Virus record (IMG/VR): IMGVR_UViG_3300020469_003502
Location: 1-53,797 of that record
DNA length: 53,797 bases
Reading direction: 5' to 3' (one strand)
Origin: a virus
Shown here: piece after piece, positions 5,011-35,401 of the stretch
How the letters are laid out: each line of letters starts with the position of its first letter
Position numbering within the stretch: the stretch's first letter is position 1
Program-made: the position numbers and the translations under genes
Notes under the pieces: generated by a model
What the model was told of the DNA's origin: nothing
The model's input: only the letters and a program-made list of their open reading frames with translations
Database searches by the model: none

Positions 5011-6392
5011 CAGATAATTTAAATAAACCTGGATTTACTACACAAGCACCAAAAGCATTTACAGATGAACCAATTGCTGGTTTGAATCCATACAGAGGTG
5101 TAAAACTTGCAACTGTGGTCGATGTTGTAGACGACAGATACGAAGGTTATATGTATGTAGATATGGTTGGTAGCGGAAGATTAGGAAAAGTAGACAGCAA
5201 AGAGGAAAGACAAAAATACACAAGAGTAAGACGTTTACAACCTTATGGTGGTTCTTACCAAGCTAGCGATCATACTAGAAGTTATGGTATGAATAGTCAT
5301 CCTCCTGCTCCTGGTACAGAAGTATTGGTTGCGTTTACAGGACATGATCAAGAAGGTATAATCATAGGCGTTTTACCTGATGCAACAAGAAATAGTAGTT
5401 TTCCAGACAATGCAGTTAGTTTTGTAGAAGGTGAATCAAAATCAGCTGGACCTACATTTGATGCTGGAGTGCAAAAAACACAAGAAAAGAATTCAAGACC
5501 CAGACATCCTCTTGCTGGTACATTAGGAAAACAAGGACTAGGACTTGACAGTGTAAGAGGTTTGAGCAGTAGTAGTGCAAGAAGAGAATCTCCTAGTAAT
5601 GTATTTGGGTTTAATACTCCGACTGGGCATAGTTTTGTTATGGATGATGGCACAGTTAGTAAAAGCGATCAAAGTTTAGCACCAGATGAAAGTAGAGAAG
5701 CTGGCGATAGTAACCTCGTAAGATTACGCAGTGCTGGTGGTGCTCAAATGCTGTTCAATGACACAGCAGGTATAGTATATGTAATCAATCAAGCAGGTAA
5801 CAGTTGGGTTCAGCTCAGTGCTGATGGTAAAATAGACATTTACAGTAGCGGTGATATCAGTATGCACACAGAAAATGATATGAACATGCATGTAGGAGGA
5901 GACTTTTCTTTAGATGCAGATGCTGTTAATATCAAAGCAAGAGGCAGTGACGGAATTCAATTAGAAACAGCAACAGGTGAATTTAATTTACACTCAAACA
6001 AAGATATCAAACTTACAACTGATTTGAATATGCATTTAAAAGCTGTTGGTAATAGTAGAACCACTGCCGCACTAATAGATTTAAACGGCCCTACAGCATC
6101 AGAAGCTTCTAAGACTACAAACAACAATATAAGTGTTAATAGAACTGTAAAACAAAGTATTACAAGTAGAGTTCCAGAAGCAGAACCTTGGGGAGGACAT
6201 ACAGAACAACAAACTAAAATTGCAAGTGCCGCCAGCAGTGATTTAAATCTAGCAGGTAAAGACATAGACATGTCAAAGGTAGAAAATAATAATCAAAATG
6301 CTCCTAATAATCCAAAAAGCAGTACTACTCAAACTGGAGGATATGAAAAACCTAATAGGAATACCAATCCAAGAAATGGGAGTGCGTTTTAA
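5007..6392 (+). CDS. 5: Central spike protein, gp5/VgrG-like, without lysozyme
   Basis: The start at ATG 5007 (461 residues) overlaps the hub stop as ATGA. An upstream in-frame GTG at 4977 lies inside the hub gene and is less likely. Residues about 20-120 look like the OB-fold of gp5/VgrG, with PPAPGTEVLVAF and GIIIGVLPD. Residues about 200-360 are regular short beta repeats (ADGKIDIYSSGDISMHTEN and following), the pattern of the triple-stranded beta-helix needle. No lysozyme catalytic domain is present between them, unlike T4 gp5. A Ser/Asn/Thr-rich tail follows. The protein should form the trimeric membrane-puncturing needle under the hub. Muralytic activity appears to be supplied by the neighbours. 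Confidence 0.8.
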   Translation: MTDNLNKPGFTTQAPKAFTDEPIAGLNPYRGVKLATVVDVVDDRYEGYMYVDMVGSGRLGKVDSKEERQKYTRVRRLQPYGGSYQASDHTRSYGMNSHPPAPGTEVLVAFTGHDQEGIIIGVLPDATRNSSFPDNAVSFVEGESKSAGPTFDAGVQKTQEKNSRPRHPLAGTLGKQGLGLDSVRGLSSSSARRESPSNVFGFNTPTGHSFVMDDGTVSKSDQSLAPDESREAGDSNLVRLRSAGGAQMLFNDTAGIVYVINQAGNSWVQLSADGKIDIYSSGDISMHTENDMNMHVGGDFSLDADAVNIKARGSDGIQLETATGEFNLHSNKDIKLTTDLNMHLKAVGNSRTTAALIDLNGPTASEASKTTNNNISVNRTVKQSITSRVPEAEPWGGHTEQQTKIASAASSDLNLAGKDIDMSKVENNNQNAPNNPKSSTTQTGGYEKPNRNTNPRNGSAF

Positions 6393-7323: not shown

Positions 7324-7689
7324 ATGGTAACTTATATAGGATATAGCAGTGTAGATCAAACAATCAGCAGTAAACGTCTTGAAGATGTTGATATTGCTAA
7401 AAGGGATCTAATGAATCATTTGCAAACTCGTAAAGGCGAAAGAGTTATGAATCCAAAGTTTGGTAGCATACTACCAGAATTAGTGTTCGAACCTTTGGAT
7501 ATCGCCACACAACAAGATGCATTACAGGATATAACAGAAATTGTAAACAATGATCCAAGATGGAAATACATAGAAGCTATCCTTGATAAAACAGGCGAAC
7601 ATTCTTTAGAAGTTCGTGTACGATTAGAATATATTGATACAGGAACAGCAGAAGAACTGTTTCTTACATACACAGGTGAGCAAGTATAA
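7324..7689 (+). CDS. 25: Baseplate wedge protein gp25
   Basis: This 121-residue protein is of the standard length of gp25/GPW_gp25. It shows the family pattern: the KRDLMNHLQTRKGERVMNP helix, then FGS.LPELVFEP, then an acidic helix (QQDALQDITEIVNNDPRW) and a C-terminal beta pair. gp25 links gp6 dimers and the sheath and nucleates sheath polymerisation. It is directly followed by gp6 in a TAATG overlap, the conserved gp25-gp6 order of contractile tails. It has its own late-promoter-like element. The ATG at 7324 lacks a good ribosome site upstream, consistent with a leaderless or reinitiating start. Confidence 0.9.
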   Translation: MVTYIGYSSVDQTISSKRLEDVDIAKRDLMNHLQTRKGERVMNPKFGSILPELVFEPLDIATQQDALQDITEIVNNDPRWKYIEAILDKTGEHSLEVRVRLEYIDTGTAEELFLTYTGEQV

Positions 7690-10600
7690 TGGCACAAGGC
7701 GCAAGACAAAGTAGTTTATTTGCCGCAGAAGACTTCAGCGTTGTATACGAAAGTTTCAGCGAAGCAAACTTCCAAGCATATGATTATGAAACCATAAGAA
7801 ATGCAATGGTAGACTACATAAACAAAAACTATCCAGAGAATTACAATGACTGGATCAATTCAAGTGAATTTGTAAGTTTAATAGAACTTATGGCATTTCT
7901 AGGACATAACTTAGCATTTAGAGCAGACCTAGCAAGTAGAGAAAATTATCTTAGTACAGCAGAACGCAGAGATAGCGCCTTACGCATTGCTGAATTTTTG
8001 GGATACACACCTACAAGAAATGTTGTTGCTAGTGGTTATCTTAAAATTGATAGTGTAAAAACAAACGAAAATGTATTTGACGCAGGTGGACAAAGTTTAG
8101 CTAATACTAGTGTACAATTTGACGACAGTTCAGATCCAAATAGTTATCAAAACTTTTTAACAATTATGAATGCAATATTTCAATCAAGTAGTCAGTTTGG
8201 TTCGCCTTACAGTAAGTTTAGTACTAGTGGTGCAAGCAATGAGATATACAGAACAAACAGTATTGCAAATATTGCAGTAAGAAATTTTCAAAATTTAGTA
8301 AACAATAAAAGCACATCTTTTAGTTTTCACAGTGTAAAAGCAAATACTGCAAGTCAAGTACTTGAAGAGAAAACACCAGATCCTTATGGTGTAATAGATT
8401 TATTATATAGAAATGACAACAGTGGTAATACAAGTTCAAACACAGGATTCTTTGTAGGATTTAAACAAGGTAGTTTAGAATATCAAGACTTTACCATTGA
8501 TGAAGGTATCTCAAACATTGTGCTTGATATAAACTCTGACAATGTTGCAAGTGGTAATGTATGGGTACAAACAATTGACGAAGTTGGCACAGTGCAAAAA
8601 AGTTGGACAAGAGTAGACAAACAGTTTGGTGCTAATACTATATTCAATGCAAGATCTAATAATATCAGAGATGTCTATACTATTGCAAGTAGAGAAAATG
8701 ATCAAATTAGTATTGTATTTGGAGATGGTAACTTTGGAAATATACCACGTGGTATAATTAGAGTTTGGTATAGAACAGGATTAAACCTAACATATACACT
8801 TCAACCTAGTAGCTTCAACAACACAAATTTAATTGTAGAATATGTTGGAAGTGATGGAAACAATTATAATGCAACTTTTATCTGTAGTTTAAAATCAAAC
8901 GTGACTAATGCAAGCGAACGTGAAAGTATTACAAGCATAAAAGCAAATGCTCCAAGATATTTTTCAACACAGGATAGAATGGTAACAGCAGATGATTACA
9001 GTATTTTTCCAGTTACAGTAAGTGAAAATATTAGTAAGATTAAAAGTGTTAATAGAGTTCATAGTGGACACAGCAGATTCAGAGATATATACGATCCGAC
9101 TGCAACATACAATGATGCAACACAGTATACTGATGATGCTTATGTTTATGAAAACAATGTAACCAATAGAAGTTTAATTAGTATGCCCAGCACACTAACA
9201 GGTGCACAAATTTATGATTTACACATTAAACCTTTGTTAAGCAATCCTGAACTTAAAAACTTCTATTACAATAGACAAGGATATACTAGTACTGGATATA
9301 ACAGTCAGAGTGATTTTAATAACACAACTGACGGAATTACAGTTGTAAATTCTACACTCAATGATGAAACAAATGTATTTCGTTGGAACCAAGTAACCAA
9401 AGGCGCAAACGGCTGTAGTGGATATTTTACTTACAACACAGGCGGCACAGTTTATGTGCAAAGAGTAGGACTTACTCAGACCAACAGTTTGAAAAAAGCA
9501 AGTTTAAACAGCCTAGTAGAATTTATTAGCACACCTTTTAAAACAGGTTACATCAGTGCAATTACTAGAGTAGCAGGAGGTAGCGGATATACTAGTGCTC
9601 CAACTGTAACTATTAGTGGCAGTGGCACAGGTGCTACAGCTACAGCGGTTGTACAGTCCGGTGCAGTTGACCACATTGTTGTAAACAACAGCGGAAGCGG
9701 ATATGATGAAAATACTATTGTTACTATTTCCGGTGGCGGTGGTTCAAGTGCTACAGCAACAATCACAGTATTAGATGCTCCAACACAATGGGTTAAAATA
9801 GATAGACTGTACAAAGACGGTATAGGAGATGATGATAGTGCTGGTGCTCCTACTGGTTTAGATAACGCAGGTAAAGGTGCAGTAGTACTAAGTGGAATAA
9901 TAAATGCAGGAGCAAGAGTCAACAGAATTGTTCCTGTAATTAATACTGACTTGGATAAAACTACAAAAGCAGATGTAGTTAGTAAAATAAATGCACAAAA
10001 TAGTTTTGCACTAAGATATGATGCTAATGCACAGCTATGGAAAGTAATTGAAACATCAAATATTCCTGCTAATACCATAGCAAATAACGTAGCAACTCAG
10101 TGGAGTAGACAGTACGAAGCAGACAATTCAGCTACAGGAAGAGATAACAGTTGGCTGATAAGATTAAACTACAGCTCAACACAATGGGAAGTACTCACAA
10201 GAAGAACACAAATGGTTTTCGGAAGTACACAAAAATTAAAGTTTGGTAACTTAAACTTCAATGAAACATTTAGCAGTGAAACACAAAAACCACAAAGAGA
10301 TTGTTTAAAAGTATTGAGTATGAATAAGACTACTGATACAAATGCAACACCACTAGGCAAAGATTACAAGTTCAATGTATTTGGATACTTCACATACCAA
10401 GATGGTTATACAGATCCACACAATGTTAGAGTAACAGTTGCTGATCCAGAAAACAGCGACTACCCAACTGATCCAGAAAGTTTTAACAAGGTGCTTGCTG
10501 GACAAACAATTAAGTTGGGTACAAAAACAGTTGACGGATTCGATTACACAGTATATGATTCAAACGGTACAACTACTGTAAATGGTAAAGCAAATTTACA

Positions 10601-11273
10601 CATGCAATATGATAGAATCAGTGACATAAACAACCTAATAGATCCAGCAGTAACAAATATTGTAGACACTTATGTATTGCTTAACAGCTACGACAGTGAC
10701 TTTAGAACTTGGGCAAACTATGATGGAAGAAGTGAAACAAAACCTACTCCGCCAACTATTAGTGAACTTACAAATCTGTTTACTAGTTTAGAAACTAAAA
10801 AAGCAATTAGTGATCAGGTAATTTACAGACCTGTAAAATATAAAATACTATTTGGCGATTTAGCTAGTAGTGAACTACAGGCTAGATTCAATGTAACTAA
10901 AACTTCAAATAGTACACTCAGTGATACAGAAATAAAGCAAAAAGTAATTGCACTTATTACTGATTATTTTAATATAAACAATTGGGACTTTGGTGAGGAC
11001 TTTTATTTTACAGAAATGGCGGCTTACATACACAATAACCTAGTAGGTGAAATAAGTCAAATAACAATTCAACCAGTTGGCAGTGAAACTGCGGTAAGAG
11101 ACTTGTTTGAAATAACAAGCTTCGGTGACGAGCTGTTTCTACCAGTAGTTAAATCTAATAACATAGTTGTTGCAAACAGCGTAACAGGCAACAGTACAAC
11201 CATTGCAGAAAGTGCAAGTGTTAGTGTAACAGGCGGTGGAAGTAGTTCTGGTAGTTCGGGGAGCAGTTACTAA
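7689..11273 (+). CDS. 6: Baseplate wedge protein gp6 (enlarged)
   Basis: The 1194-residue protein is nearly twice the length of T4 gp6 (660). The N-terminus (residues 20-120, with AMVDYINKNYPENYNDW and LIELMAFLGHNLAFRADLAS) is the classic gp6/gpJ baseplate wedge signature. Residues about 305-420 contain the J-like core. The C-terminal part (about 1040-1150), with DTEIKQKVIALITDYFNI and AAYIHNNLV, is the usual gp6 end. Between them is an insert. Residues about 625-700 form a Gly/Ser/Thr-rich beta module with GGSGYTSAPTVTISG that is repeated within itself and recurs in the next gene. The tail ends in Gly/Ser. gp6 forms the ring that holds the wedges and changes conformation during contraction. 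Confidence 0.88.
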   Translation: MAQGARQSSLFAAEDFSVVYESFSEANFQAYDYETIRNAMVDYINKNYPENYNDWINSSEFVSLIELMAFLGHNLAFRADLASRENYLSTAERRDSALRIAEFLGYTPTRNVVASGYLKIDSVKTNENVFDAGGQSLANTSVQFDDSSDPNSYQNFLTIMNAIFQSSSQFGSPYSKFSTSGASNEIYRTNSIANIAVRNFQNLVNNKSTSFSFHSVKANTASQVLEEKTPDPYGVIDLLYRNDNSGNTSSNTGFFVGFKQGSLEYQDFTIDEGISNIVLDINSDNVASGNVWVQTIDEVGTVQKSWTRVDKQFGANTIFNARSNNIRDVYTIASRENDQISIVFGDGNFGNIPRGIIRVWYRTGLNLTYTLQPSSFNNTNLIVEYVGSDGNNYNATFICSLKSNVTNASERESITSIKANAPRYFSTQDRMVTADDYSIFPVTVSENISKIKSVNRVHSGHSRFRDIYDPTATYNDATQYTDDAYVYENNVTNRSLISMPSTLTGAQIYDLHIKPLLSNPELKNFYYNRQGYTSTGYNSQSDFNNTTDGITVVNSTLNDETNVFRWNQVTKGANGCSGYFTYNTGGTVYVQRVGLTQTNSLKKASLNSLVEFISTPFKTGYISAITRVAGGSGYTSAPTVTISGSGTGATATAVVQSGAVDHIVVNNSGSGYDENTIVTISGGGGSSATATITVLDAPTQWVKIDRLYKDGIGDDDSAGAPTGLDNAGKGAVVLSGIINAGARVNRIVPVINTDLDKTTKADVVSKINAQNSFALRYDANAQLWKVIETSNIPANTIANNVATQWSRQYEADNSATGRDNSWLIRLNYSSTQWEVLTRRTQMVFGSTQKLKFGNLNFNETFSSETQKPQRDCLKVLSMNKTTDTNATPLGKDYKFNVFGYFTYQDGYTDPHNVRVTVADPENSDYPTDPESFNKVLAGQTIKLGTKTVDGFDYTVYDSNGTTTVNGKANLHMQYDRISDINNLIDPAVTNIVDTYVLLNSYDSDFRTWANYDGRSETKPTPPTISELTNLFTSLETKKAISDQVIYRPVKYKILFGDLASSELQARFNVTKTSNSTLSDTEIKQKVIALITDYFNINNWDFGEDFYFTEMAAYIHNNLVGEISQITIQPVGSETAVRDLFEITSFGDELFLPVVKSNNIVVANSVTGNSTTIAESASVSVTGGGSSSGSSGSSY
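9555..9770 (+). repeat. GxGYTSAPT beta module, copy in gp6
   Basis: This stretch encodes two tandem units around GGSGYTSAPTVTISG and NSGSGYDENTIVTISG (gp6 residues about 625-700). A related unit, GGTGYTSAPTIVIND, occurs in the following giant gene at about 15764-15990. The identical core GYTSAPT in two adjacent but otherwise unlike baseplate proteins suggests a mobile or duplicated decoration domain inserted in both. Confidence 0.65.
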
Positions 11274-14200
11274 TGAGCGAACGCAAATCAAATCCTAGTG
11301 TAGCACCACTAATTACAACTCCTGGTGCAAGTAAAAAATTTACTGGTACAAGAGATATTACTGGTTTACTACCTAACGTATTTCAAACAGAAGTTAATAA
11401 ACAATTCTTAGATTCTACATTAGAACAGTTGCTTTCCTCAGGAAGTCTACAACCTATTAAAAATTATGTAGGTCAAAAGTTTCTTAAAGATACAGTAAAC
11501 ACAAACTATATCGCAGACAATAGAGTAGATGACAATTATCAGTTTGTTCCTGCATTGGTTAACAAAGATGAAGCAAACAATAATGCAGTCACACAGGTAT
11601 TGCCATACAATGATTTTATCAATACACTAAAGTATAACGAAGTTGATGTAAACAATCACAATAAATTATTGGACGAAAAAGGCTATACACTTGACTTACC
11701 AATTAACTATGACATGTTTATTAACTACCATAGATACTATTGGGTATTAGATGTTCTTCCTGCTAGTAAACTACAATGTACAAGTTCATTTGATATTGAT
11801 ACTATTATTGGCGAAACTACATATACAACTCCAGTACAGAAAAATACTAGAGCATTGACATTTGAGAATGGTATGCGTGTTAAATTTGATCCACATACTA
11901 TTGATAGATTTACACAGAGTAGTGCAGTTAATACAACTTTTACAGCTACAGTAGCAAATGCTGAAACATTAAAAGTTTATAAAAATAATGTATTACAAAC
12001 ATTCATAACACATTACACATACGACAGCGTATCTGGTGTAGTTACCTTTGTTACTGCTCCAGCAGTCAATGAAGAAGTAGAAATACATACATTTTATTCT
12101 AAGAGTACAAGTGGTAATTATGCAGTAGGTGACACTTACATTGTTGATGGTGTAGGTGAACCCGGCGGAATAAAACTTACAAAGCAATTCACAAGTGGTC
12201 AAATAGAAGGCAGTTACGGTGATAGAACTTGGATAAATCATACAGTTTATAGTAGTCAAGAGCCTAGCGAATTTGACAGCGACAGGTTTGCTTTTGATAA
12301 AAGACCATTTGATTTACAAGAATATAAAATGACTACAAGAGATTACGTAGTTGAGCAAAGATACTCAGAAGATCAAAGTGCATGGGCAAGAAGTAATCTT
12401 TGGGTGCATGAACAAACTATTGCCAACAGTTTGATATACGACGGCTATGCAAACGTACAAGATAATGTTTATGCAATAGACAAATACAGAGCAGTTAGAC
12501 CAATTATTGAATACAAAGCCAGTATAGAAAAATATAACTTTGGTAAAAAACATATTGCAAATGTAACTTTTTTGATTGAAGATAATACAATCGACCCTAC
12601 TACAGCAATTGTAGGTCAAACAGCATATGATTGGAACATAAGTGGTATTAGTACTGCATGGACTCAAGGAGTCGGAGGTTCAGCAGTAGGTGATCAATAC
12701 TATGTTGACCTAGGAACTTCTCCTAATACAAAGCGTACTTATTGGCAGTGTATTAAAAATCATCCTACTGCAAGAAATCCTATTCATGGCGAGAATCATG
12801 AATATTGGAAACAAATAACGCCACAAGAACTTGAGAATGGTGATACTATTTTATTTTTGAGAAATACTAATGCAAACTACAATGAAAGAATATTCAGAGT
12901 TGGTGGTGTAGGTAGTTCTATTACACTAACAGAAATTTATGGTGCTAGCAGTACAGCAATTAGTACTAACGATAAAGTTGTTATTATAAATGGATTCAAT
13001 ACTACAAAATTCGACGATGGTGAAGAAGCAAAACCATTTGGCGGCAGTGAATGGTATTATAATGGCACTACTTGGGTTTATGGACAACAAAAAACACACA
13101 GAAGTGCAGGTATGCTTGTAGAGCTTTATGATTTAGATGGTGTGTTACTTAGTAATACAACAAAATATCCTGAGAATAATTTTACTGGTGCATGTATATT
13201 TGACTATGTACACAATGATTCTAACCCAATGGACGAAGCATTAGGTTTCAGTCCCAGCTATGCTGATTATGGAAATAGTCCAGGTCTAAATTTTAGCATG
13301 CCATTTTTAAGCACTAGACTTACATATACAAGAGTTAGTAGTGATGGATTACGCAGTCTCAATCAAGAGATACAAGGGGCATACTACTATAAAGATTTGT
13401 CTGGAGTTGCATACAATGGCTGGAGTATACTAAGAAATGGACAGCCTGTCAAGAGAACAATTAGTAAAACAGTTACAACTGAAAACAGTACTCAATCAAT
13501 GATTTTTAATTTAGGTTATACAGATTTTGCAACAGACAGACATATCACAATGTTCAAGCGTAACACATATATAGATGTTAAAACGCAAAAAGATACAAGT
13601 CTAACAAACAATATTAACGATGTCAATGGTAGACTTCCTGAATTGTTTTTTGCAACAAACACAACCTACAATATAACAACACAGTTCAATCAAGCAGACG
13701 TTGAATTTGTAAATATGGACGGTACTGCAATTGGTAGTGGATTGACACGTACAGCAGGAAGTGGAAATAACTTTACAATAGTAGTTGCTTCTCCAACTGT
13801 AAATGCAATCAAGTATAGACTATCTGCACTTCCTAATAGTTTTGGTGTAATTTATTTTAATACTATTGCAAATGATACTAATATTAAAGTATATAAAAAT
13901 AGAGAAGAAACAGATAATTATACACTGAGCAATAATATATTGACAATAAATGGCGGACTAGCAGTAGATGATATTTACGAAGTAGAGTATCATACACACA
14001 ACGCTTATAGTGATTCAGCTGAAGGATTTCAACAAGCTAGCGACACACACTTGTTTAATCCACAAAACAATAGTTTTACAAATATTACATTTGGTGATTT
14101 GATAGAACATATGCGTCAACAAATGACTGGCATTCCTGGGTTTAATGGTAGTTTCTTTGGAATCAACAATTATAGAAGTATTCCGCATGTACATGAATTT

Positions 14201-17200
14201 GGTGGAACAATTAGACAACAGCCATACAGTACTGAATTACTAAACCAATTACTTATGGATACAGATACAAACTTGTATGCCAGTATCAAACATGCAAGCA
14301 GTCACTATAGTATGTTCTTAAAGAAGTTTGCTACAAAAGCAATACAAATACACAAATCATTGGATATCACAAAAAGCACATATCAAATGGTTGACAAGAT
14401 TTTACAAGAAATGAATCTTGGCAAAAACAAAGACATGCAATTTGCACAAAGTGACATGGCAATGTACAGAGATTTTGAAAGCAAAGACTATAGTTTTCAA
14501 ACAACAATGACAAAAGTTTTTGATTTGCCACAAAGTGTTAACACCTATGACGATACAGAAAATCATGTGCAGGTTTGGGTGCAAGATGATGACGGCGCTG
14601 GTAACTTACGTTGGAGATCATTGGTAAAAGATATAGATTATACACTAGCAAGTAATAAAGTAACTATCACAGGTTTAGTAACATACCCTTCTAGTGGAGT
14701 AGCTAAAACACATATTAGGTGGTATAAGAGAGATAGTGTTAGCTTTGTTCCAAACAGTGCAGTAAAGCTAGGACTAATACGACCTTACACACCTGAATTG
14801 AGATCAGACTACAGCGTTGATAGCAACGGTACAGCTACAACTAATGTAATTGTTAGACATGACGGTAGTATACATGTTCGTAACGGAACAGAAATTTATG
14901 ATAGAAGCAGAGTAGGTTATGATCCAGTTGATGCCGCTATATTTGATTTAGAGTGTAGAATATACAATAATCTAAATGCAACATTGGATAACATAGACAA
15001 TATTAAAACATATATGCCTAATGCAAATAGAGCAAATAGATACACATGGACACAAATACAAAATAGTGTTGTAAGTGAATTTAACAAATGGAAAGTAGAA
15101 AAAAACTATACTGATTTACAAAGTTCAACTTATTATGATGGCAGTGACAAGTTTACTTGGAACTATAGCAGTGTAGGTCCTGGTATTGGAGGTTGGAGAG
15201 GACTATACATTTACCACTTCAATACAGATAGACCACATACTCATCCATGGGAAATGTTAGGACATAACAAAAAGCCAACATGGTGGGATACAAACTACAG
15301 TTGGACAAACGCTACAAAACGTACCGCATTGATAACAGCATTAAGATTTGGTAAAGTAAACGACCCAAGCGTTGATAACAACTTTGATATTAACTACAAT
15401 TATGATAATTATGATTGGGCTAACAATACATTGGTTACTAATGCTGGTGTGCTAAACGATCCAGACACAGCTAATGTTGTTGCTACACCAAGTGCGGCAA
15501 ATAGACAAAAAGATTTTGTATACGGCGACTGGGGTCCAGTAGAAGCAGAATGGAGACGTAGTCCAGAATATAAGATAGCTGAATTTTTATCTTTGGCAAA
15601 AACTAGACCATTAATTGCTGTAAACAACTATTTCAAAGTTAACGAAAGATCAACAAGAGATTTTAGTTCATCAGACAAGCCTCAGATTTACAGCACCAAC
15701 AGTAACAAACTTGACAACTTTAAAAACACTGGCGTGAGTGGTGTACTACAAACTGGTAAAATTATTGAAAGTGTTATAGTTAAAGATGGCGGCACAGGTT
15801 ATACCAGTGCTCCAACTATTGTAATTAATGATAACTTCGGTAGTGGTGCAATACTTACAGCATTTGTACAAGGCGGTAGTGTAGTAAGTGTTAGTGTTGC
15901 AAACGCTGGTAAAGATTACTACAATAATCCTAAGTTAACACTAAGCACAGGATCAGCAGTATTAGAAACAGTGCTTGCTGAATCTCCAAAAAGATACTTT
16001 GCTGGTTTACAAAATGCTGTAGTAGAGTATGCAAAATCATTGAGTACTAGTAGCAAAACAATTCAAACAAGAATGAAGAGTATGGATTACAATCCAATAG
16101 TTAAAGCAGGTGGATTTGTAAACAACAATCAAAAGTTTATGTTAGAAAGTAGCCAAGACAAAGGCAGAGTATTTGTGCCTGAAGAAAACTTTACAACAAT
16201 TTTATTCAATAGTAAACCAACTGCTGAATATTTCATTAGTGGAATTAAGATTGATAAAGTAGAATCAGGTTATAAAATAAATGGTTATGATAACGACAAG
16301 ATGTACTTTGAATACTTTGAACCAAACACAGCAAGTTCTTCTATAAAGCAAACATTTTCAGTTGATATATTCAGATACAGCGAATATAACACAACAAAAT
16401 CTATACTTAATTATAACACAATTTTTACAACAATACAAGAAGTATATAGTTTTATTTTAGGCTACGGTGAATGTCTAGCACAACAAGGCTTTACACAAAA
16501 CTGGAGAGGCAGTGCAACTAACTTTGTAAATTATGCTTTAGCTTCAGCAACAGATACACTTTATCTAATACCTGATAACAGTAAAATTATTGTTAGTGAC
16601 GGAGCAGATGGATACTTTGATAATTTAGAGTCAAAGTATGATGGTATATTCAATATTAACAATAAACTAGGACAGCGGATACAAAGCACTGATTTAATAA
16701 TTGATAGAAATTTAATGATACCCAACAGCGACACAGTGTTTAAGGTAAAACAATCAACTACACAAATATATGGACTAAGACTGTACAAGACCAGTGTTGA
16801 ACATTTAATTGTATTTGACAATACAACAAATTTCGATGATACAATTTATGATGCAAGTATTGGACAAAGACACAAACGCATACAGTGGAATGGAAGTAGA
16901 ACAAAAGACTGGAACGGAAAGTTTTATAGTCCTGGATTTATTATCAACAACAACAGTATCATTCCAAACTTTGATACAGTAGCTGAACAAACAGATCAAT
17001 ATTTGGGTAGAACTAAATCACTTACAAACAATCAAATAAGTGATGTTGCTAGATTTAATATTGGATACAATCAACCCACGTGGGCTAAAGATTTGGATCT
17101 TGATGACGATACACTTTTTGAATTTGTAAAAGGAACTTACAAGTACAAAGGTACAAAATATGCACTAGATGCATTTCTAAAAAACAAAGGGTTATTTGAC

Positions 17201-20200
17201 GGAGATAGTGTAGGAGAACTGTATGAAGAATGGGCAGTGCGTATGGGTGATTTTGGAGACACTCGTAGCAGAGATACACTAGAGTTTGAACTTACACCAG
17301 ACTTGTTAATTACAAGTCCACAGCCTGTAAGATTTTTTAACACACAAAAATATGATGTGCTAACAGACACTACAATTGATATTGACACAAAAAGTCCATT
17401 GTTAGTAACAGGTACACCAGGAGATTACTTTGATACTAGAGCAGTAAAAACATATACCGAAGCAGGCATTACACAAGAAGATGCGTTTGCAAATGACTAT
17501 GTGAGTGCAGGATTACCGTTGCTAACTGAAGCAGATTTTAAAGTTTTAAACAGAGAAGGCATGTTGTCTTTTCCAGATGTAATTAATAGCGAATATGACT
17601 TTACAGGCGATTGGCAAAAACCAACTCCTTGGGAAACTAATATAAGTTACAAGTTTAACGATCAAATTATGCACAATGGTAGCACATGGGAAATGGTAGA
17701 TCCAAAAGGATATTCAGGATTAACTAGTGCTAATCAACCCATTGAGGTAGTTGGTACAGTTAGTTTGCCTATAGTACCTGCAAGTGGAGGTACATTAATA
17801 TTAGATGGCAACACAATTAGTCTTACTAAAAGTGCAACACAAACAACACTTAATGTTATAAACAAAATAGGCACACAAGATATTGCCACTAGCAATGTAG
17901 TTACACACGGAAGTACGCTAGTATTAGGTTCAACTAGTGCTTTGAGTAGTACAATAACTTTTGCAAACAGTGTAAACAATGTTACATACAACAATATAAC
18001 CAAAGACGGAACAACAAGCAATCCTAGCTTTACAGGCAGTGCAACCAAAACATTAATCATTGATGGTAACACAATTACATTCGATGACACAGTCAGCACA
18101 ACAAACAATATCACTGCACAAACAGCATTAGAAAATGCTTTTAATGCAAACGGATTTAGTAGTGTTGCTACGCTGGCTACTAATAGAATAAATGCAATTG
18201 AATCATTGAGACTGGGTTATGTAAGTGCAAATAGTGCAAGTGCATGGACAACTTTTATGACAGACTATTTCAATCCAAGTAATGCTGGTATTGACTTAAC
18301 ACTTTTATTGAATGCATACAACACAAATCCAGCATATAAAACACAGCTGGGTTCACTGATAACCAGCGATGTAGCATTAATAAATGCTAAAACTGGAAAT
18401 AGTTATGTAGCGTCAGCAGTACTAAGTGGATCAACTGTAATTCCAAGCAGTGATATTACTGCTACACAAAATGCCGTTGATAACGGTACACACATGGCGG
18501 CACTAGCAACTTGGATTAAAGCTAATCCAACAGTTGTATTTGCAACAACTACAGTTGTTACAACAATAAGTGGAACTACATTTAAAACTTATACACTAGC
18601 AGATATAGTCAACAAGATTACAGCCGCAGGAATTGCTAACATTACTGCAAGTGCAAGCAGTAATTTTTTAAGATTAGTTAAAACAACTAGTACACCTACT
18701 GTAGCGTTTAACCTTGTAATTAGTGCAGGCACCGCAAACAGTGATGTGGGCTTTAGCAGTGTTACAGAAACTATTGCGGCAACAAGCAGTGTTACAGTAA
18801 CTACCCCAAATCTAACTATTGCACAAGTTGTACAACAAATTAATAATGCTGGTATATCAAATATTTCAGCAGTTATCAATAGTGCAAATACCAATTTACT
18901 GCAAATTAATTGTAATGCAAGTTCATTGTTTGTAGGCAGTGGTACTGCAAACAGTATTGTAGGGTTAACACAAGGTGTGACCCCAGCTGGTACTACTACA
19001 ACAACATCAAATATTGCACCGGATATAAATGATATTATTGACTCAATTAATACAGCAACCATCAGTGGTGTAACAGCAAGTAACAGCAACAATAGATTAA
19101 AGTTAACCAGTAACAATGCAATACTTGTTATAGGCGCCGGAACTAGCAATGCTAATGTAGGTCTGTCAGCACAAACTTATACAGCGTCAATCAGCACAGT
19201 TAGTAATGTGTTCAATGCTATCGTAAGTGGCGTTGAAGTGTTTAAAGAAATGACAAATGATCCTAATGTTTTTAGTATTTGGGTTGCAGACGACAGTGAG
19301 TTTGGTAGTTATAACAAAGGTTATCAAGTTTATCAAACCATGGATTTTGGAATGTATATTAGCAATGCATGTGCCGGACCAACAAATGCTGATGACGCAG
19401 AGGTTACAGTAGCACGTTCACCAAGCACGGCTACACAAGCACACAATTTGGTCTCAGGTGACTATGTATTAATTAGAGGTAGTACAACTACACCAAGCAT
19501 AGACGGAATACACAAAGTTACCACTGTAGACCTTGGTAATACAGCAAAGTTTTTCATTGATGAATATATTGAATCAGAAGGAAAACTTGGAAACATTTAC
19601 CCACTACGTCCTGTTAGATTTAACAGCAAGGCTGAACTAGATACTGTATATAATTCAAAAGTAAACGGAATATACAAATATAATTTCAACGGAGTAAGAC
19701 AGAATAACAGTTTGAATAAGATTAACATATTTGTAGATGATGATGGTTATGACAAGAGTGCAGTATACACTTGGGCAGGTGACTATACTGATGCAAACGG
19801 ACACCACAATGGTAGCTTTACCCAAGCTCGTGTAGGACAAGCACAGACAACACCTTCGACTAATTTACAAGTAAAATTATACGATGCTAGTGCAAGAACT
19901 AGTATTGCTAATTTAGAGATATGGGATCCTGCAAAAGGTATTATATTTGGCTTTATAGACAAAGAGATTGATTATAAACTAGTAAATGATATTGGTAGCT
20001 ACAACTTCAATACTCTCAACGGAGAGATGACCAACATAAATGCTTGGAAAGATGAATATGTTGGAGTGCGTTGGTGGGATTTAAGCACCGCTGTTTACCT
20101 TGATTACGAACAAAGCATTATCGAATACCAGCAAACAAACTGGGGAAGACTATTTCCAGGTGCAAGTATAGATGTATACGAATGGACAAGATCCACAGTG

Positions 20201-22543
20201 CTACCTGAATTTTGGGATCAAGCTGTTGAAGATGGAACAGTAATTGACGGACAAGAAGCAAGCGGAGAAGCATACTTTACAATAATTAATAATGAAAAAG
20301 TATACAATTGGACACAGCAAAATTATTATAATCCAAAAACAAGACGTGACGAAGTTGTATATTACTTCTGGGTTAAGAATAAACTTAACTATAGCGGTAT
20401 TAGACAATATAATGTAAGTCAGATTTCACAGATACTTAAGAATCCAAGTGCATTTAATATTGCCTGGGCGGCACCTTCATTGTCTAATCAGCTATTGTTA
20501 AACAATATAAGCAACTTCGTAACAAAAAATACTGTAGTACAAGTAACCAAAAACTATACTAATACAAACAGTATGCCATTAAATGATTGGACACTGCTAG
20601 GCGAAGATGATCCTAATTGTTACATTCCAGAATACTTGCATATTAAAATGCGTGATAGTTTAGCTGGTTTTAATAATCATACAGTTGATGCAACTTACTC
20701 AACTTGGAATAATAGCACAAGTTACTTGGTAAATGCTGTAGTAGAACGAAACGGCAAATACTACATAAGTCGACAATCATCTAATCAAAACTATGATCCA
20801 TTATTAGATTCAGCAATGACATATTGGCAACAAATTTATGATTACACATTTGATAATACCACACAAGTAGATGATATTAAAATTTGGAGAGGTCAACACC
20901 TACCAGACTATAACTTACATCCATACAATAGATACGGACATCTAGTTAGACCAAGACAAAGTTTGTTTAGAGATTTACCTGAAGCAAGACAAAATTTTGT
21001 ATACACAGTAAATGACTTACTAGGCGAAGTTAATTTAATTGACGAAGTAGTAAATTGGAAAAACTGTTTCCACGCTACATTCACAAAAGGTAACGTAACA
21101 TATAATATTAAAGATTATGTAACACTAGTTGACTGGTATCTAGTAGAAAAAGATGCAGACGGAAATGTAACATACGAATTTAATCCAAATACTATAGCAG
21201 ATTTTACTTTTGATAGTGACACAGAACGTTTAGATTTTACAGGTAACATTCCAGATGGTAGTTATATATTAATCAAGTACAATCAAGGCAACGATGGATT
21301 AAACAGACAAAGAATGCTTTTTGTAACAGGCGGATTAGACAAACTAGTAAGTATGGAGAAAGCCACAGTTAAGCTCAGTGAAGAACTTTGGTTAGAAAGC
21401 AAGTTCGGACACGGTTTTGATGCAGGCGGATTTGGTATACTTCCATATGACAGTGGAGCAAATGATGTAATAGGCAAACTAATGGATCTATTACGCAGTG
21501 AAATTTTTGTACATAGACACAAGGTAATGTATAATAAAATGTGGTTTAAATTATTATACGGTGCAATTTTACAAAACACAACGGATGATTTTGCTTTCAA
21601 AACCAGTTATGTAAAATTAAAAGTAAAACACCCACTGCTAACAAATAAAACAACATATCAGAGATATCCAATAAGTGTTGTGGAAGATTACTTTAATAGC
21701 ATCAAGCCATTCCATACAAAGCTATTAGATCTCACTGAAAGCAACACACACATAGAAGCAACTATGGCAGAAATTGACGAAGTGTCCAGACAGACTGCTA
21801 TTACTATGATATACAATGACCATACTGAGTGTGCTTGGAATGGTGATGAGATACTAGAAGGTGGACTGTTTACAACTGATATGGAAACTACTGCTAGTAA
21901 TATTGACCAAAGCGGGTTTACTACACTGGATTCAAGTTATGATAATATTGCAGATGGTGATATATTTGCTAATCCACGATATCAATACTGTGACGGTGAA
22001 TTATACAAAACTGATTTTACAGAAAATATTGCAATTGCTGTACAAACAAATGCAAGTGGAAATAGCTTGACATCTGACAGTAGAGCATATAGAATGAGTA
22101 CATACATGCCAAATAACATTCAAGTGAGTAATGTTATTGTGGATGCAAACAAAACAACTACCACAGCCGCAGTAACTGGTTTAGATACAACTATTCCCGT
22201 AGCAGATGCAACTAAACTAGATAATCCAAGTACAGTAATTGGTGTAGGCGAAATACCTGGAGTTGTTTATATAGGAAGTGAACGAATAGAATACCGTGCA
22301 GTAAGTGGAAATAACTTGCTATTTTGCACAAGAGGTACACTAGGTACTAGTGGAAAAGCACATGCTAGTGGTGCAACTGTAGTAAACAGTGGCGAAACTA
22401 CACGTATTCCAATACTGGAAAAGTTCTCTGATTACGGAGATAACTTACGAACAGCATACAATGACAGTGGTACAAGTTTAAGTGCCACAGGAATCTCACC
22501 TGAACACGCATTTATTCGAAATGCAGGGCAAGGATCGATATAA
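11273..22543 (+). CDS. Giant gp7-like baseplate wedge protein (3756 residues)
   Basis: This is the largest gene in the window, directly following gp6 (TAATG overlap), where gp7 is expected; T4 gp7 has 1032 residues. The N-terminal 170 residues, with FLPN-like and INYDMFINYHRYYWV segments, resemble the conserved start of giant wedge or structural proteins of marine myophages. Recognisable modules include a GGTGYTSAPT beta unit (about 1498-1575). Others are chitin-binding-like 'WNxxxxYxxxxVVxxNGKYY ... YWxQI' units (about 2120 and 3145, perhaps one near 470) and a Ser/Thr/Asn-rich low-complexity stretch (about 2160-2440). Three tandem flagellin-IN-like repeats lie at about 2440-2634. The C-terminal domain has IPVADATKL and VVYIGSERIEYRAV. 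The sheer size and repeat content suggest an expanded peripheral baseplate that holds the fibres. The gp7 identity is from gene order and N-terminal likeness. Confidence 0.75.
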   Translation: MSERKSNPSVAPLITTPGASKKFTGTRDITGLLPNVFQTEVNKQFLDSTLEQLLSSGSLQPIKNYVGQKFLKDTVNTNYIADNRVDDNYQFVPALVNKDEANNNAVTQVLPYNDFINTLKYNEVDVNNHNKLLDEKGYTLDLPINYDMFINYHRYYWVLDVLPASKLQCTSSFDIDTIIGETTYTTPVQKNTRALTFENGMRVKFDPHTIDRFTQSSAVNTTFTATVANAETLKVYKNNVLQTFITHYTYDSVSGVVTFVTAPAVNEEVEIHTFYSKSTSGNYAVGDTYIVDGVGEPGGIKLTKQFTSGQIEGSYGDRTWINHTVYSSQEPSEFDSDRFAFDKRPFDLQEYKMTTRDYVVEQRYSEDQSAWARSNLWVHEQTIANSLIYDGYANVQDNVYAIDKYRAVRPIIEYKASIEKYNFGKKHIANVTFLIEDNTIDPTTAIVGQTAYDWNISGISTAWTQGVGGSAVGDQYYVDLGTSPNTKRTYWQCIKNHPTARNPIHGENHEYWKQITPQELENGDTILFLRNTNANYNERIFRVGGVGSSITLTEIYGASSTAISTNDKVVIINGFNTTKFDDGEEAKPFGGSEWYYNGTTWVYGQQKTHRSAGMLVELYDLDGVLLSNTTKYPENNFTGACIFDYVHNDSNPMDEALGFSPSYADYGNSPGLNFSMPFLSTRLTYTRVSSDGLRSLNQEIQGAYYYKDLSGVAYNGWSILRNGQPVKRTISKTVTTENSTQSMIFNLGYTDFATDRHITMFKRNTYIDVKTQKDTSLTNNINDVNGRLPELFFATNTTYNITTQFNQADVEFVNMDGTAIGSGLTRTAGSGNNFTIVVASPTVNAIKYRLSALPNSFGVIYFNTIANDTNIKVYKNREETDNYTLSNNILTINGGLAVDDIYEVEYHTHNAYSDSAEGFQQASDTHLFNPQNNSFTNITFGDLIEHMRQQMTGIPGFNGSFFGINNYRSIPHVHEFGGTIRQQPYSTELLNQLLMDTDTNLYASIKHASSHYSMFLKKFATKAIQIHKSLDITKSTYQMVDKILQEMNLGKNKDMQFAQSDMAMYRDFESKDYSFQTTMTKVFDLPQSVNTYDDTENHVQVWVQDDDGAGNLRWRSLVKDIDYTLASNKVTITGLVTYPSSGVAKTHIRWYKRDSVSFVPNSAVKLGLIRPYTPELRSDYSVDSNGTATTNVIVRHDGSIHVRNGTEIYDRSRVGYDPVDAAIFDLECRIYNNLNATLDNIDNIKTYMPNANRANRYTWTQIQNSVVSEFNKWKVEKNYTDLQSSTYYDGSDKFTWNYSSVGPGIGGWRGLYIYHFNTDRPHTHPWEMLGHNKKPTWWDTNYSWTNATKRTALITALRFGKVNDPSVDNNFDINYNYDNYDWANNTLVTNAGVLNDPDTANVVATPSAANRQKDFVYGDWGPVEAEWRRSPEYKIAEFLSLAKTRPLIAVNNYFKVNERSTRDFSSSDKPQIYSTNSNKLDNFKNTGVSGVLQTGKIIESVIVKDGGTGYTSAPTIVINDNFGSGAILTAFVQGGSVVSVSVANAGKDYYNNPKLTLSTGSAVLETVLAESPKRYFAGLQNAVVEYAKSLSTSSKTIQTRMKSMDYNPIVKAGGFVNNNQKFMLESSQDKGRVFVPEENFTTILFNSKPTAEYFISGIKIDKVESGYKINGYDNDKMYFEYFEPNTASSSIKQTFSVDIFRYSEYNTTKSILNYNTIFTTIQEVYSFILGYGECLAQQGFTQNWRGSATNFVNYALASATDTLYLIPDNSKIIVSDGADGYFDNLESKYDGIFNINNKLGQRIQSTDLIIDRNLMIPNSDTVFKVKQSTTQIYGLRLYKTSVEHLIVFDNTTNFDDTIYDASIGQRHKRIQWNGSRTKDWNGKFYSPGFIINNNSIIPNFDTVAEQTDQYLGRTKSLTNNQISDVARFNIGYNQPTWAKDLDLDDDTLFEFVKGTYKYKGTKYALDAFLKNKGLFDGDSVGELYEEWAVRMGDFGDTRSRDTLEFELTPDLLITSPQPVRFFNTQKYDVLTDTTIDIDTKSPLLVTGTPGDYFDTRAVKTYTEAGITQEDAFANDYVSAGLPLLTEADFKVLNREGMLSFPDVINSEYDFTGDWQKPTPWETNISYKFNDQIMHNGSTWEMVDPKGYSGLTSANQPIEVVGTVSLPIVPASGGTLILDGNTISLTKSATQTTLNVINKIGTQDIATSNVVTHGSTLVLGSTSALSSTITFANSVNNVTYNNITKDGTTSNPSFTGSATKTLIIDGNTITFDDTVSTTNNITAQTALENAFNANGFSSVATLATNRINAIESLRLGYVSANSASAWTTFMTDYFNPSNAGIDLTLLLNAYNTNPAYKTQLGSLITSDVALINAKTGNSYVASAVLSGSTVIPSSDITATQNAVDNGTHMAALATWIKANPTVVFATTTVVTTISGTTFKTYTLADIVNKITAAGIANITASASSNFLRLVKTTSTPTVAFNLVISAGTANSDVGFSSVTETIAATSSVTVTTPNLTIAQVVQQINNAGISNISAVINSANTNLLQINCNASSLFVGSGTANSIVGLTQGVTPAGTTTTTSNIAPDINDIIDSINTATISGVTASNSNNRLKLTSNNAILVIGAGTSNANVGLSAQTYTASISTVSNVFNAIVSGVEVFKEMTNDPNVFSIWVADDSEFGSYNKGYQVYQTMDFGMYISNACAGPTNADDAEVTVARSPSTATQAHNLVSGDYVLIRGSTTTPSIDGIHKVTTVDLGNTAKFFIDEYIESEGKLGNIYPLRPVRFNSKAELDTVYNSKVNGIYKYNFNGVRQNNSLNKINIFVDDDGYDKSAVYTWAGDYTDANGHHNGSFTQARVGQAQTTPSTNLQVKLYDASARTSIANLEIWDPAKGIIFGFIDKEIDYKLVNDIGSYNFNTLNGEMTNINAWKDEYVGVRWWDLSTAVYLDYEQSIIEYQQTNWGRLFPGASIDVYEWTRSTVLPEFWDQAVEDGTVIDGQEASGEAYFTIINNEKVYNWTQQNYYNPKTRRDEVVYYFWVKNKLNYSGIRQYNVSQISQILKNPSAFNIAWAAPSLSNQLLLNNISNFVTKNTVVQVTKNYTNTNSMPLNDWTLLGEDDPNCYIPEYLHIKMRDSLAGFNNHTVDATYSTWNNSTSYLVNAVVERNGKYYISRQSSNQNYDPLLDSAMTYWQQIYDYTFDNTTQVDDIKIWRGQHLPDYNLHPYNRYGHLVRPRQSLFRDLPEARQNFVYTVNDLLGEVNLIDEVVNWKNCFHATFTKGNVTYNIKDYVTLVDWYLVEKDADGNVTYEFNPNTIADFTFDSDTERLDFTGNIPDGSYILIKYNQGNDGLNRQRMLFVTGGLDKLVSMEKATVKLSEELWLESKFGHGFDAGGFGILPYDSGANDVIGKLMDLLRSEIFVHRHKVMYNKMWFKLLYGAILQNTTDDFAFKTSYVKLKVKHPLLTNKTTYQRYPISVVEDYFNSIKPFHTKLLDLTESNTHIEATMAEIDEVSRQTAITMIYNDHTECAWNGDEILEGGLFTTDMETTASNIDQSGFTTLDSSYDNIADGDIFANPRYQYCDGELYKTDFTENIAIAVQTNASGNSLTSDSRAYRMSTYMPNNIQVSNVIVDANKTTTTAAVTGLDTTIPVADATKLDNPSTVIGVGEIPGVVYIGSERIEYRAVSGNNLLFCTRGTLGTSGKAHASGATVVNSGETTRIPILEKFSDYGDNLRTAYNDSGTSLSATGISPEHAFIRNAGQGSI
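15764..15990 (+). repeat. GxGYTSAPT beta module, copy in giant wedge gene
   Basis: This stretch encodes DGGTGYTSAPTIVIND and a degenerate second half (NAGKDYYNNPKLTLS) at residues about 1498-1575 of the giant protein. It is homologous by eye to the module in gp6 at 9555-9770. Confidence 0.6.
18593..19168 (+). repeat. Three tandem flagellin-IN-like protein repeats
   Basis: Three units begin with TLADIVNKITAAGI (18593), TIAQVVQQINNAGI (about 18811) and DINDIIDSINTATI (about 19021). Each then shows a '..IT/SAS..NxLxL' strand and closes with '..GTANSxVGxS/T' or '..GTSNANVGLS'. This is the pattern of the flagellin hook IN motif found in FliD and flagellins. The units are diverged at the amino-acid level, so they are old duplications rather than recent DNA repeats. 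Confidence 0.6.
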
Positions 22544-34030: not shown

Positions 34031-34578
34031 AAAAGTTATTACACATACCAAACTGTTGGCATGAACAAATTGCAAACGCATACGATTTAGAATTAGTAAC
34101 AGATAATCCTGATATTATTATACTACGTGATCCTTTTGATAGAGCTGTAGAAGCTACAGTAGATTTGTTGGACAGCGGAGGTGAAACCAATGGTTTGACA
34201 TTTGAAGAATTATTGTTTCAAGACAACAATATATATTCAAAAGCATTGAGAATCACAACTGGAACAGCAGATGAGCTGAAACAGAAAATGTTCGAGTTTG
34301 TTTGGTTAAGCAGTTATATCGTTTGGCCTAGAATAACAGGTGAACTGCACCCCAAGGAGCAGACCAAACCACTTGAAAGATTTAATTTGACCAGCACAAG
34401 TAAAAAATTAAGTGATTATCTTTCTGTGCCACATCAGCAGTTAAATGTCAATCAAAGATTTACTAGTAGTGATTTAGGTACAGCTCTACGTGGAGACTTT
34501 CAACTTGCTAACAGTATGGATTATGATCTCGTAAGAAAATTAAAAATATACACAGACAAAGGAAGATACTATGAGTAA
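34027..34578 (+). CDS. Sulfotransferase-like protein lacking the PAPS P-loop
   Basis: This 183-residue protein contains IIILRDPFDRA (residues 31-40), the 3'-phosphate-binding 'RxPxxR' motif of sulfotransferases, at an unusually early position. The N-terminal 'PKxGGTT' 5'-phosphosulfate loop seen in the next two genes is missing. The start (MKKLLHIPNCWHEQIANAYD) goes straight into the second motif. The protein is about 70-90 residues shorter than its neighbours. It may be a degenerate subunit that pairs with a complete sulfotransferase, or a regulatory relative. There is no sign of a frameshift upstream, because the preceding gene is an intact radical SAM gene. Confidence 0.55.
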   Translation: MKKLLHIPNCWHEQIANAYDLELVTDNPDIIILRDPFDRAVEATVDLLDSGGETNGLTFEELLFQDNNIYSKALRITTGTADELKQKMFEFVWLSSYIVWPRITGELHPKEQTKPLERFNLTSTSKKLSDYLSVPHQQLNVNQRFTSSDLGTALRGDFQLANSMDYDLVRKLKIYTDKGRYYE

Positions 34579-35401
34579 TGTTATTGTTTTCCCACATTGT
34601 CCTAAAACTGGCGGAACCACGCTTAAAGAACGCTACAGCAATCAAAACGAATCGTTTGCAATAACAGATTTAAATCACAATGTCAATAATAAAACCAAAG
34701 TGATATTTGGACATAATGTAAAAATTGGATATTACGAAAACGTTCTCAAAAATAACTGTGTATACATCACATGTTTACGCAATCCTGTAAGCAGAATAAT
34801 GAGCATGTATAACTTTTATAGAACACAAATCCTTTATATGAATCCAGATAGTCCAGACATTGACTTCTATCTTTGGTTCATAAACAAAGATGTTATTAGA
34901 CCTATGTCTGTAGTCAAACAGTACGAATACTTTTTATATCAGCATGCTGATCATGTAAGCTGGTTTGAAGATAAAACACTAGCAGATCCTTTTCGTTCGA
35001 ATGATATGTATCTCAATAGTGTACTATCCTGGGACGTTGAAGCAGATAAAAGTTCTGTAGACAACAATAAATTAGAAGACCGTATAAAACACAAACAACA
35101 AGTTGAACAACAGAATATGAATGTAACTTGGGATAGAGTAGTAAATAATTTTGACCATGTATTTTTTCAACATGAAGATATTGTTGATATCTTTGATAAC
35201 CTATTAGTAAAGTATGACATACAAATGCAAGTATGGAAAGAAATGATCATAACCAACGAAACAAAACATGATTTAGAAAAACATAATTTAGAATATGTAA
35301 ACTTTTACAACTTAGACGACGACTTAAAGTATCTTGTTGAGCTTGATCTAAAAGCTGATATTGACTTTTACAATAGATGCGAGGAAAAATGGAAACGCTA
35401 G
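34571..35401 (+). CDS. Sulfotransferase (Sulfotransfer_2-like)
   Basis: This 276-residue protein has the 5'-phosphosulfate-binding loop CPKTGGTTLKERY (residues 10-22), the 3'-phosphate motif CLRNPVSRIMSMYNF (68-82, with R70 and R75), and FGHNV in between. This is the layout of heparan/carbohydrate O-sulfotransferases and of bacterial glycan sulfotransferases. The reaction is transfer of sulfate from PAPS to a hydroxyl or amine, probably on a sugar. It is the middle of three sulfotransferase-like genes. An APS-kinase-like gene 10 kb downstream in the same transcript could supply PAPS. Start and ribosome site (AAAGGAAG) lie within the upstream gene. Confidence 0.8.
   Translation: MSNVIVFPHCPKTGGTTLKERYSNQNESFAITDLNHNVNNKTKVIFGHNVKIGYYENVLKNNCVYITCLRNPVSRIMSMYNFYRTQILYMNPDSPDIDFYLWFINKDVIRPMSVVKQYEYFLYQHADHVSWFEDKTLADPFRSNDMYLNSVLSWDVEADKSSVDNNKLEDRIKHKQQVEQQNMNVTWDRVVNNFDHVFFQHEDIVDIFDNLLVKYDIQMQVWKEMIITNETKHDLEKHNLEYVNFYNLDDDLKYLVELDLKADIDFYNRCEEKWKR

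Follow-up and report, generated by a model that had tools for sequence, protein, structure and literature searches.

A giant structural protein in the gp7 position of a phage baseplate locus, and the patchily distributed C-terminal beta-propeller of its relatives

Introduction

What does a protein of 3756 residues do in the place where phage T4 encodes its 1032-residue gp7? The question is raised by a single open frame, starting with ATG, that takes up 21% of one whole IMG/VR virus record (IMGVR_UViG_3300020469_003502; 53,797 bases, hereafter the window). A preliminary description had called its product a baseplate protein over three times as long as T4 gp7, with insert modules between conserved ends; it had placed the frame exactly, and the ratio of the two lengths is indeed 3.64. 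T4 gp7 is a monomer of 119 kDa present in six copies (PMC3004832). Relatives of the giant protein are annotated in public records mostly as "virion structural protein" or "hypothetical". Our literature search, which moved largely outside subscription journals, found in the accessible texts no paper on the role of the family or on a domain cassette within it, and the names of the RaK2 giant were not found by a term search of the accessible text of PMC3622015 and PMC10253068. The features discussed below are collected in Table 1.

Table 1. Positions in the window of the giant gene, its parts and its neighbours (aa, residues of the giant protein)
Feature	Position	Strand	Remarks
gp5-like baseplate hub / tail lysozyme	4977..6392	+	phrog_13211, E 1.1e-21
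gp25-like baseplate wedge	7324..7689	+	phrog_43, E 4.4e-14
gp6-like baseplate wedge	7689..11273	+	1194 aa; phrog_10646, E 2.4e-261; phrog_219, E 1.8e-22
Giant virion structural protein, gp7 position	11273..22543	+	3756 aa, about 418 kDa; phrog_10938
Indel site (aa 227-282)	11951..12118	+	missing from 10/31 near relatives
GYTSAPT beta unit (aa 1498-1557)	15764..15943	+	also in cyanophage gp7-slot giant; by profile in gp6-like protein
F..G.....GT motif (aa 1951-1970), candidate gp7-like core	17123..17182	+	predicted helix-turn-helix
Family-wide variable block (aa 2020-2740)	17330..19492	+	721 aa here; 159-1252 aa in 102 relatives
CBM5/12-like unit (aa ~2115-2161)	17615..17755	+	Pfam 18.7 bits; similar predicted fold, weaker
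Beta-alpha-beta repeats (aa ~2430-2642), first called flagellin-IN	18560..19198	+	from predicted model
Second CBM5/12-fold unit (aa 3141-3186)	20693..20830	+	Pfam 16.7 bits; predicted fold, Foldseek prob 1.00 to 2d49, 4tx8
Empty cassette site (after aa ~3593-3596)	22052..22061	+	~254-aa beta-propeller here in relatives
C-terminal beta domain (aa 3625-3708)	22145..22396	+	common to cyanophage giant, P 1.8e-6
Gene 3' of the giant, 199 aa	22568..23167	+	phrog_11259, E 7.3e-57
Sulfotransferase, weak	34571-35401		
MORN-repeat matches	36114-37583 and 38211-39551		second weak, its protein also with radical-SAM domain
Carbamoyltransferase	45331-46818		
GFO_IDH_MocA/radical-SAM fusion	46773-49106		

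The giant gene is intact and constrained

The giant gene is real and constrained. The same protein recurs at 100% identity on a second IMG/VR contig (L006) and at 91% on a third (L003). The dN/dS ratio is 0.093 over the whole gene in the comparison with L003 and 0.091 in that with L002 (0.116 and 0.100, respectively, in aa 2020-2740), and values as low as about 0.09 indicate strong purifying selection. The frame might be an assembly artefact, or its product might exist solely as fragments, as would be suggested by one relative (L052) with a stop at about aa 1601-1607 in window numbering and by a few Salmonella phage records that annotate the giant as two or three pieces. Against these split relatives stand 71 uninterrupted complete ORFs of the family. 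The identical copy on a second contig and the purifying dN/dS lead us to reject an artefact, and we assign next to no probability to this account as a whole.

An ordinary member of a large family

The profile of phrog_10938 ("virion structural protein", 3324 positions) matches the giant in four stretches with E 8.1e-220, and it matches eight of ten giant segments when each is scanned separately. Scanning IMG/VR with the giant protein gave 54 loci, and scanning with a 16-sequence alignment gave at least 574 related stretches, from which the best 80 were kept. The 71 complete ORFs, which come from the best-matching loci rather than from a random sample and include some identical pairs, range from 2835 to 5067 aa with a median of 3764 aa. 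Nine cultured jumbo phages have an orthologue of 3313-4555 aa: RaK2 (3326 aa), MIJ3 (3857), Atu_ph07 (4449), SCTP-2 (3807), Phosso (4555), CBB (3340), 121Q (3323), Vibrio 2.275.O (3771) and XacN1 (3313). Since the median is close to the length of the giant, size does not set this phage apart; the length first remarked on is ordinary among the complete relatives, and size as a sign of novelty is rejected.

RaK2 ORF070, 121Q gp582, CBB gp236 and, very likely, phAPEC6 gp245 resemble the giant as members of phrog_10938 over most of its length, lie likewise after gp6 and belong to the same size class. They differ from it in the 2020-2740 block and at the C-terminal end, and the RaK2, CBB and 121Q proteins are 22-23% identical to it. 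The conserved stretches (about aa 1-720, 880-1440, 1600-2030, 2880-3160 and 3200-3480) span most of the protein. The giant is no outlier; its family is large, has been little studied and counts hundreds of members in public data, among which it is ordinary, and a protein of three to five thousand residues in the wedge position is the rule in this group and occurs in cyanophages as well.

Gene order and virion proteomics of orthologues

In the window a gp5-like gene, one gene without assignment, a gp25-like gene and a gp6-like gene precede the giant, and the stop of the gp6-like gene shares one base with the giant start. With T4 having the order 6-7-8, the giant stands where gp7 follows gp6. 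A gene annotated as baseplate wedge, which we call gp6-like by its size and place, lies immediately 5' of the giant in RaK2, MIJ3, Atu_ph07, Phosso, CBB, 121Q and XacN1; the corresponding gene is annotated only as CBM5/12 in Vibrio 2.275.O and as a hypothetical protein in SCTP-2. Several cultured jumbo phages have a gene of ~170-240 aa within two genes after the giant. Cyanophage S-PM2 shows a comparable order: after gp25-gp6 come a structural protein of 3048 aa, a protein of 175 aa and gp8, and a relative of this S-PM2 giant is annotated as gp7 in P-SSM4.

Published proteomics places orthologues in virions. The accessible part of the CBB report lists CBB_236, which is the giant orthologue by its locus tag, with 21 peptides and 7.72% coverage (PMC5259590). 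For phAPEC6, the accessible text gives gp245 in the virion with 381.88 kDa, 17 unique peptides and 7.6% coverage, adjoining gp244, a "baseplate wedge" (PMC7247149). For the 121Q orthologue we calculate 381.87 kDa. Mass and gene position, rather than sequence, thus make it very likely that gp245 is the orthologue; the agreement is one of calculated with calculated masses, and the protein may still be processed. The stretch of CDS 170-215 in Atu_ph07 is described, in the part of that paper at hand, as rich in virion proteins (PMC6102473). The gp25-like/gp6-like/giant order and these published data together lend good support to the initial assignment as a baseplate protein. Positions 728-1312 of the window match a cytidyltransferase-like PHROG with E 2.7e-10.

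Relation to T4 gp7 and to the cyanophage giants

T4 gp7 resembles the giant in its place after gp6 and in a presumed wedge role. It is 3.6 times shorter and has no significant link with the giant in sequence or fold: the Pfam domains Gp7_helical, Gp7_5th and Gp7_6th, all matched by T4 gp7, are absent from the giant at E<=1. Profile-profile comparison of the giant family and its sub-alignments with T4 gp7, P2 gpI and Mu gp48 gave nothing significant, nor did the family profile against P2 gpJ, gpW, Mu gp47 and T4 gp6, gp8, gp10 and gp53. The same method also misses T4 gp7 against P2 gpI and against Mu gp48, which we take to be the counterparts of T4 gp7, and it has therefore little power against homology between the giant and gp7. 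No gp7 chain is listed in the fold comparisons of the models of aa 1550-3756, which excludes nothing.

The cyanophage giants (S-PM2p084, phrog_4406/phrog_2885; P-SSM4 gp7) lie directly after gp25-gp6, as does the giant. The S-PM2 giant is linked to T4 gp7: sub-alignments covering S-PM2 150-270 and T4 gp7 640-770 align over 25 columns with P 4.6e-6, and within this core S-PM2 reads FYRAKGT and T4 gp7 FYSTKGI. In the giant, the F..G.....GT motif is a candidate for this core, with F1951 conserved in 105/109, G1954 in 99/109, G1960 in 108/109 and T1961 in 107/109 sequences. In sliding windows compared with the cyanophage core, those containing the GT motif rank 1/73 and, with 121Q as master, 1/64, at P about 0.02, the motif having been noticed before the ranking. 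T4 gp7 716-752 aligns better, though not significantly, with aa 3393-3429 of the giant than with the GT motif. A candidate gp7-like core, judged from alignments, is hence ambiguous between aa 1951-1970 and aa 3393-3429. Because these alignments are not significant, we claim the gp7 position and not gp7 homology; the comparison with T4 gp7 originally made holds for the position, and the sequence and fold tests of it are negative or powerless.

Only modules align significantly between the cyanophage giants and the giant of the window, and they do so in a different order, as compared with P about 0.02 for the core. The S-PM2 giant shares a GYTSAPT-type beta unit and the C-terminal beta domain (P 4.6e-5 to 1.8e-6). 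Vibrio phage XM1 has a (gp16)2-gp17 module that, in the accessible part of the report on it, is called homologous to T4 (gp6)2-gp7 (PMC10457771).

Modules and predicted folds

Structural models cover aa 1550-3756, about 60% of the giant: aa 1550-2740 (84 sequences, mean pLDDT 80.3, pTM 0.35) and aa 2700-3756 (67 sequences, mean pLDDT 76.7, pTM 0.38). With such low pTM values, the models speak to single domains and not to their arrangement. The GYTSAPT unit named in the preliminary description is present, with its motif at aa 1509, and the region near it matches the gp6-like protein of the window by family profile (E 4.8e-11). The gp6-like protein, of 1194 aa as against 660 in T4, has at its aa 600-690 an extra domain, the one matching the giant family with this E-value, which also matches the PHROGs of the cyanophage giants.

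Two units resembling carbohydrate-binding modules of family 5/12, the chitin-binding domains of chitinases, give sequence matches at aa 2120-2140 and 3144-3175. Both stay below the Pfam cut-off of 26.2 bits, and 11 of 14 control genomes give weak CBM5/12 matches too. For aa 3141-3186 the predicted fold is like that of the family (against 9fbp, Z 6.7 and r.m.s.d. 1.2 over 45 residues), and for aa 2115-2161 it is similar but weaker; the chitin-binding-like units first proposed are two in number and agree in predicted fold, with Pfam scores short of the threshold. As to the reported flagellin-IN repeats, Flagellin_IN (PF07196) has no match within the window at E<=10 and is rejected by sequence; in the model, aa ~2190-2642 come out similar to domains of FliD and flagellin at Z ~7, a level that the tool calls common.

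The C-terminal beta domain is predicted to have a fold like domains in the VP1 capsid protein, the GP4 portal-tail complex, the Chi tail tip and the JBD30 baseplate (Z 9.2-10.1). Baseplate chains of XM1 (7kh1_A6, Z 7.5) and of Milano are also among the fold matches; their alignments fall on block 2020-2740 or on the CBM-like units rather than on the conserved body. When the PDB was searched with profiles, the three matches obtained were all chance-like (SarA at E 0.067 with query A2; imp2 and ThsB at E 0.026 and 0.043 with query A10) and none with queries P0001, A3 and A9. In the BFVD search, parts of the same family or unnamed phage proteins head the list, and cyanophage giants rank below them.

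Variable sites

Across the wider family, variation is greatest in aa 2020-2740 and at the C-terminal end, so that this end is not conserved; the region corresponding to aa 3480-3756 measures 37 to 1680 aa in 79 relatives. Within the near clade of 31 other distinct full-length proteins, the main indels are aa 227-282 and an insertion after aa 3593 in 7/31 (six of 253-257 aa, one of 126), to which L034 adds insertions at 2320-2323 and L055 gaps at 452-518. None of the modules named at the outset is an indel site among these 31 proteins, and the Ser/Thr/Asn-rich block, constant in the nearest clade, varies only across the family as a whole. The picture of inserts between conserved ends survives for the family-wide variable block and fails for the modules within the near clade and for the C-terminus.

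Pfam matches at the 2020-2740 site comprise CBM_5_12 in 37 of 69 members (E<=0.01), FG-GAP_2 in 14, a GDSL lipase in 4 and YHYH in 1; in ten whole proteins including the giant, the counts are 9/10 for CBM_5_12, 5/10 for FG-GAP_2 and 4/10 for YHYH. The suggestion of added adhesive domains accords with the CBM5/12, FG-GAP, GDSL-lipase and beta-propeller modules in the variable sites of relatives, their binding being putative. A YHYH domain lies toward the C-terminal part of some members, for example at aa 3811-4004 of L111.

A probable wedge scaffold

We consider it probable that the giant is the wedge scaffold in a RaK2-related marine jumbo phage and that it displays exchangeable surface domains. 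In the T4 gp7 position, beside gp25- and gp6-like proteins, it would be present probably once per wedge and so six times per virion. The conserved stretches would form the structural body, and the beta-rich modules in the variable sites might sit at the baseplate rim, where they would contact host glycans or other receptors on the host surface. Two variable sites are evident. One is block 2020-2740; the other, sharply defined near aa 3596, takes whole domains in relatives and would permit domain swaps without disturbing assembly.

Alternatively, the giant might be a baseplate-attached adhesin or fibre-like protein in the place of gp7, the true gp7 counterpart being another gene. Undetectable gp7 homology, the abundance of CBM-like and other surface modules, and a C-terminal domain that in the model resembles domains of tail tips, baseplates and capsids would all suit such a protein. 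However, the same gene follows gp6 directly in jumbo phages very distant from one another, as a giant does in S-PM2; a relative of that S-PM2 giant carries the annotation gp7 in P-SSM4, the core of the S-PM2 giant aligns to that of T4 gp7, and the conserved stretches are distributed over most of the length of the giant. We regard the adhesin as unlikely and prefer the wedge scaffold.

The Ser/Thr/Asn-rich block and the downstream genes

The long Ser/Thr/Asn-rich stretch is real: these residues make up 39% of aa 2140-2660, compared with 27% of the whole giant. That this block is the substrate of a downstream modification system was proposed at the start, and the window does encode downstream seven radical-SAM proteins, a carbamoyltransferase and a sulfotransferase; in XacN1 a carbamoyl transferase and a gene annotated as GT9 lie close to the giant, and Atu_ph07 and Phosso have radical-SAM genes near theirs. 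Yet the block is predicted to be folded rather than disordered (pLDDT mostly 85-95 over aa ~2210-2640), and the neighbourhoods of the RaK2 group have no such cluster in the stretch examined. The glycosylation system as described was not borne out either, with no Glycos_transf_1 in the window and a single sub-threshold Glycos_transf_2, and a downstream array of glycosyltransferases is rejected. Modification of the block by these genes seems to us very unlikely.

The seven radical-SAM domains exceed the Pfam cut-off in seven separate ORFs between 29788 and 48485, several with SPASM, a set that looks dense for a phage. Positions 52885-53559 match a QueC-like PHROG (queuosine biosynthesis) with E 1.5e-7.

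A beta-propeller cassette near the C-terminus

The window giant itself lacks the cassette that relatives carry near the C-terminus. The insertion of 253-257 aa is a repeated SGL/lactonase-like beta-propeller (SGL matches in four copies with E between 2.8e-7 and 7.1e-5, of which three exceed the cut-off). It is present in 7 of the 45 near proteins with that end covered, the window included, while the insert of L031 is another one. A tree made by a quick method from the backbones of 37 proteins, six of them with the propeller, requires six changes, which makes the distribution patchy; the close pairs L040/L039 and L008/L044 differ in the presence of the propeller.

The cassettes are often more alike than the proteins that carry them. 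In 17 of 21 cassette pairs, from lineages with 48-63% identical backbones, the cassettes are 68-87% identical, and for L008-L018 and L009-L018 the values are 78-80% for cassettes versus 69-70% for backbones. The excess could partly reflect a slowly evolving cassette; against this account, L040 and L024 agree less in the cassette (89%) than in the backbone (96%), as does a second close pair (86 vs 88%).

A scan with the cassette gave 406 related stretches, from which the best 80 were kept. Among these 80 loci, 23 have a cassette identity of at least 70%, 16 with family sequence alongside (several on the same contigs as among the 45 near proteins) and 7 in other ORFs, and all 57 with less than 70% lie in other ORFs. 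Distant members of the family (for example L252, on the L111 contig) have cassettes that are 82-84% identical and follow a VQTN motif as in the near clade, in giants that are about 25-30% identical to that of the window where compared. Horizontal exchange best explains this pattern, as far as sequences can tell.

Surface-binding domains of phage tail fibres are exchanged at fixed junctions by domain shuffling. The cassette resembles this shuffling as an exchange of surface domains at a fixed junction and differs in its carrier, which is a giant in the wedge position and not a fibre. A broader proposal, for which we see the chances as evenly balanced, is that RaK2-related and marine jumbo phages have a gp7-position scaffold with a C-terminal docking site, at which domains, usually the propeller and once another domain, would be horizontally gained, lost and exchanged between phages with ~25-60% identical scaffolds and with unrelated virion genes. 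If so, host recognition would be switched by a baseplate-wedge cassette and not only by tail fibres, and host-range prediction should read this site too where a wedge protein serves as a chassis for exchangeable domains. In L258, L259, L263-L266 and L268 the propeller (71-85% identical) occurs without adjoining sequence of the giant family, apart from a weak match in L264.
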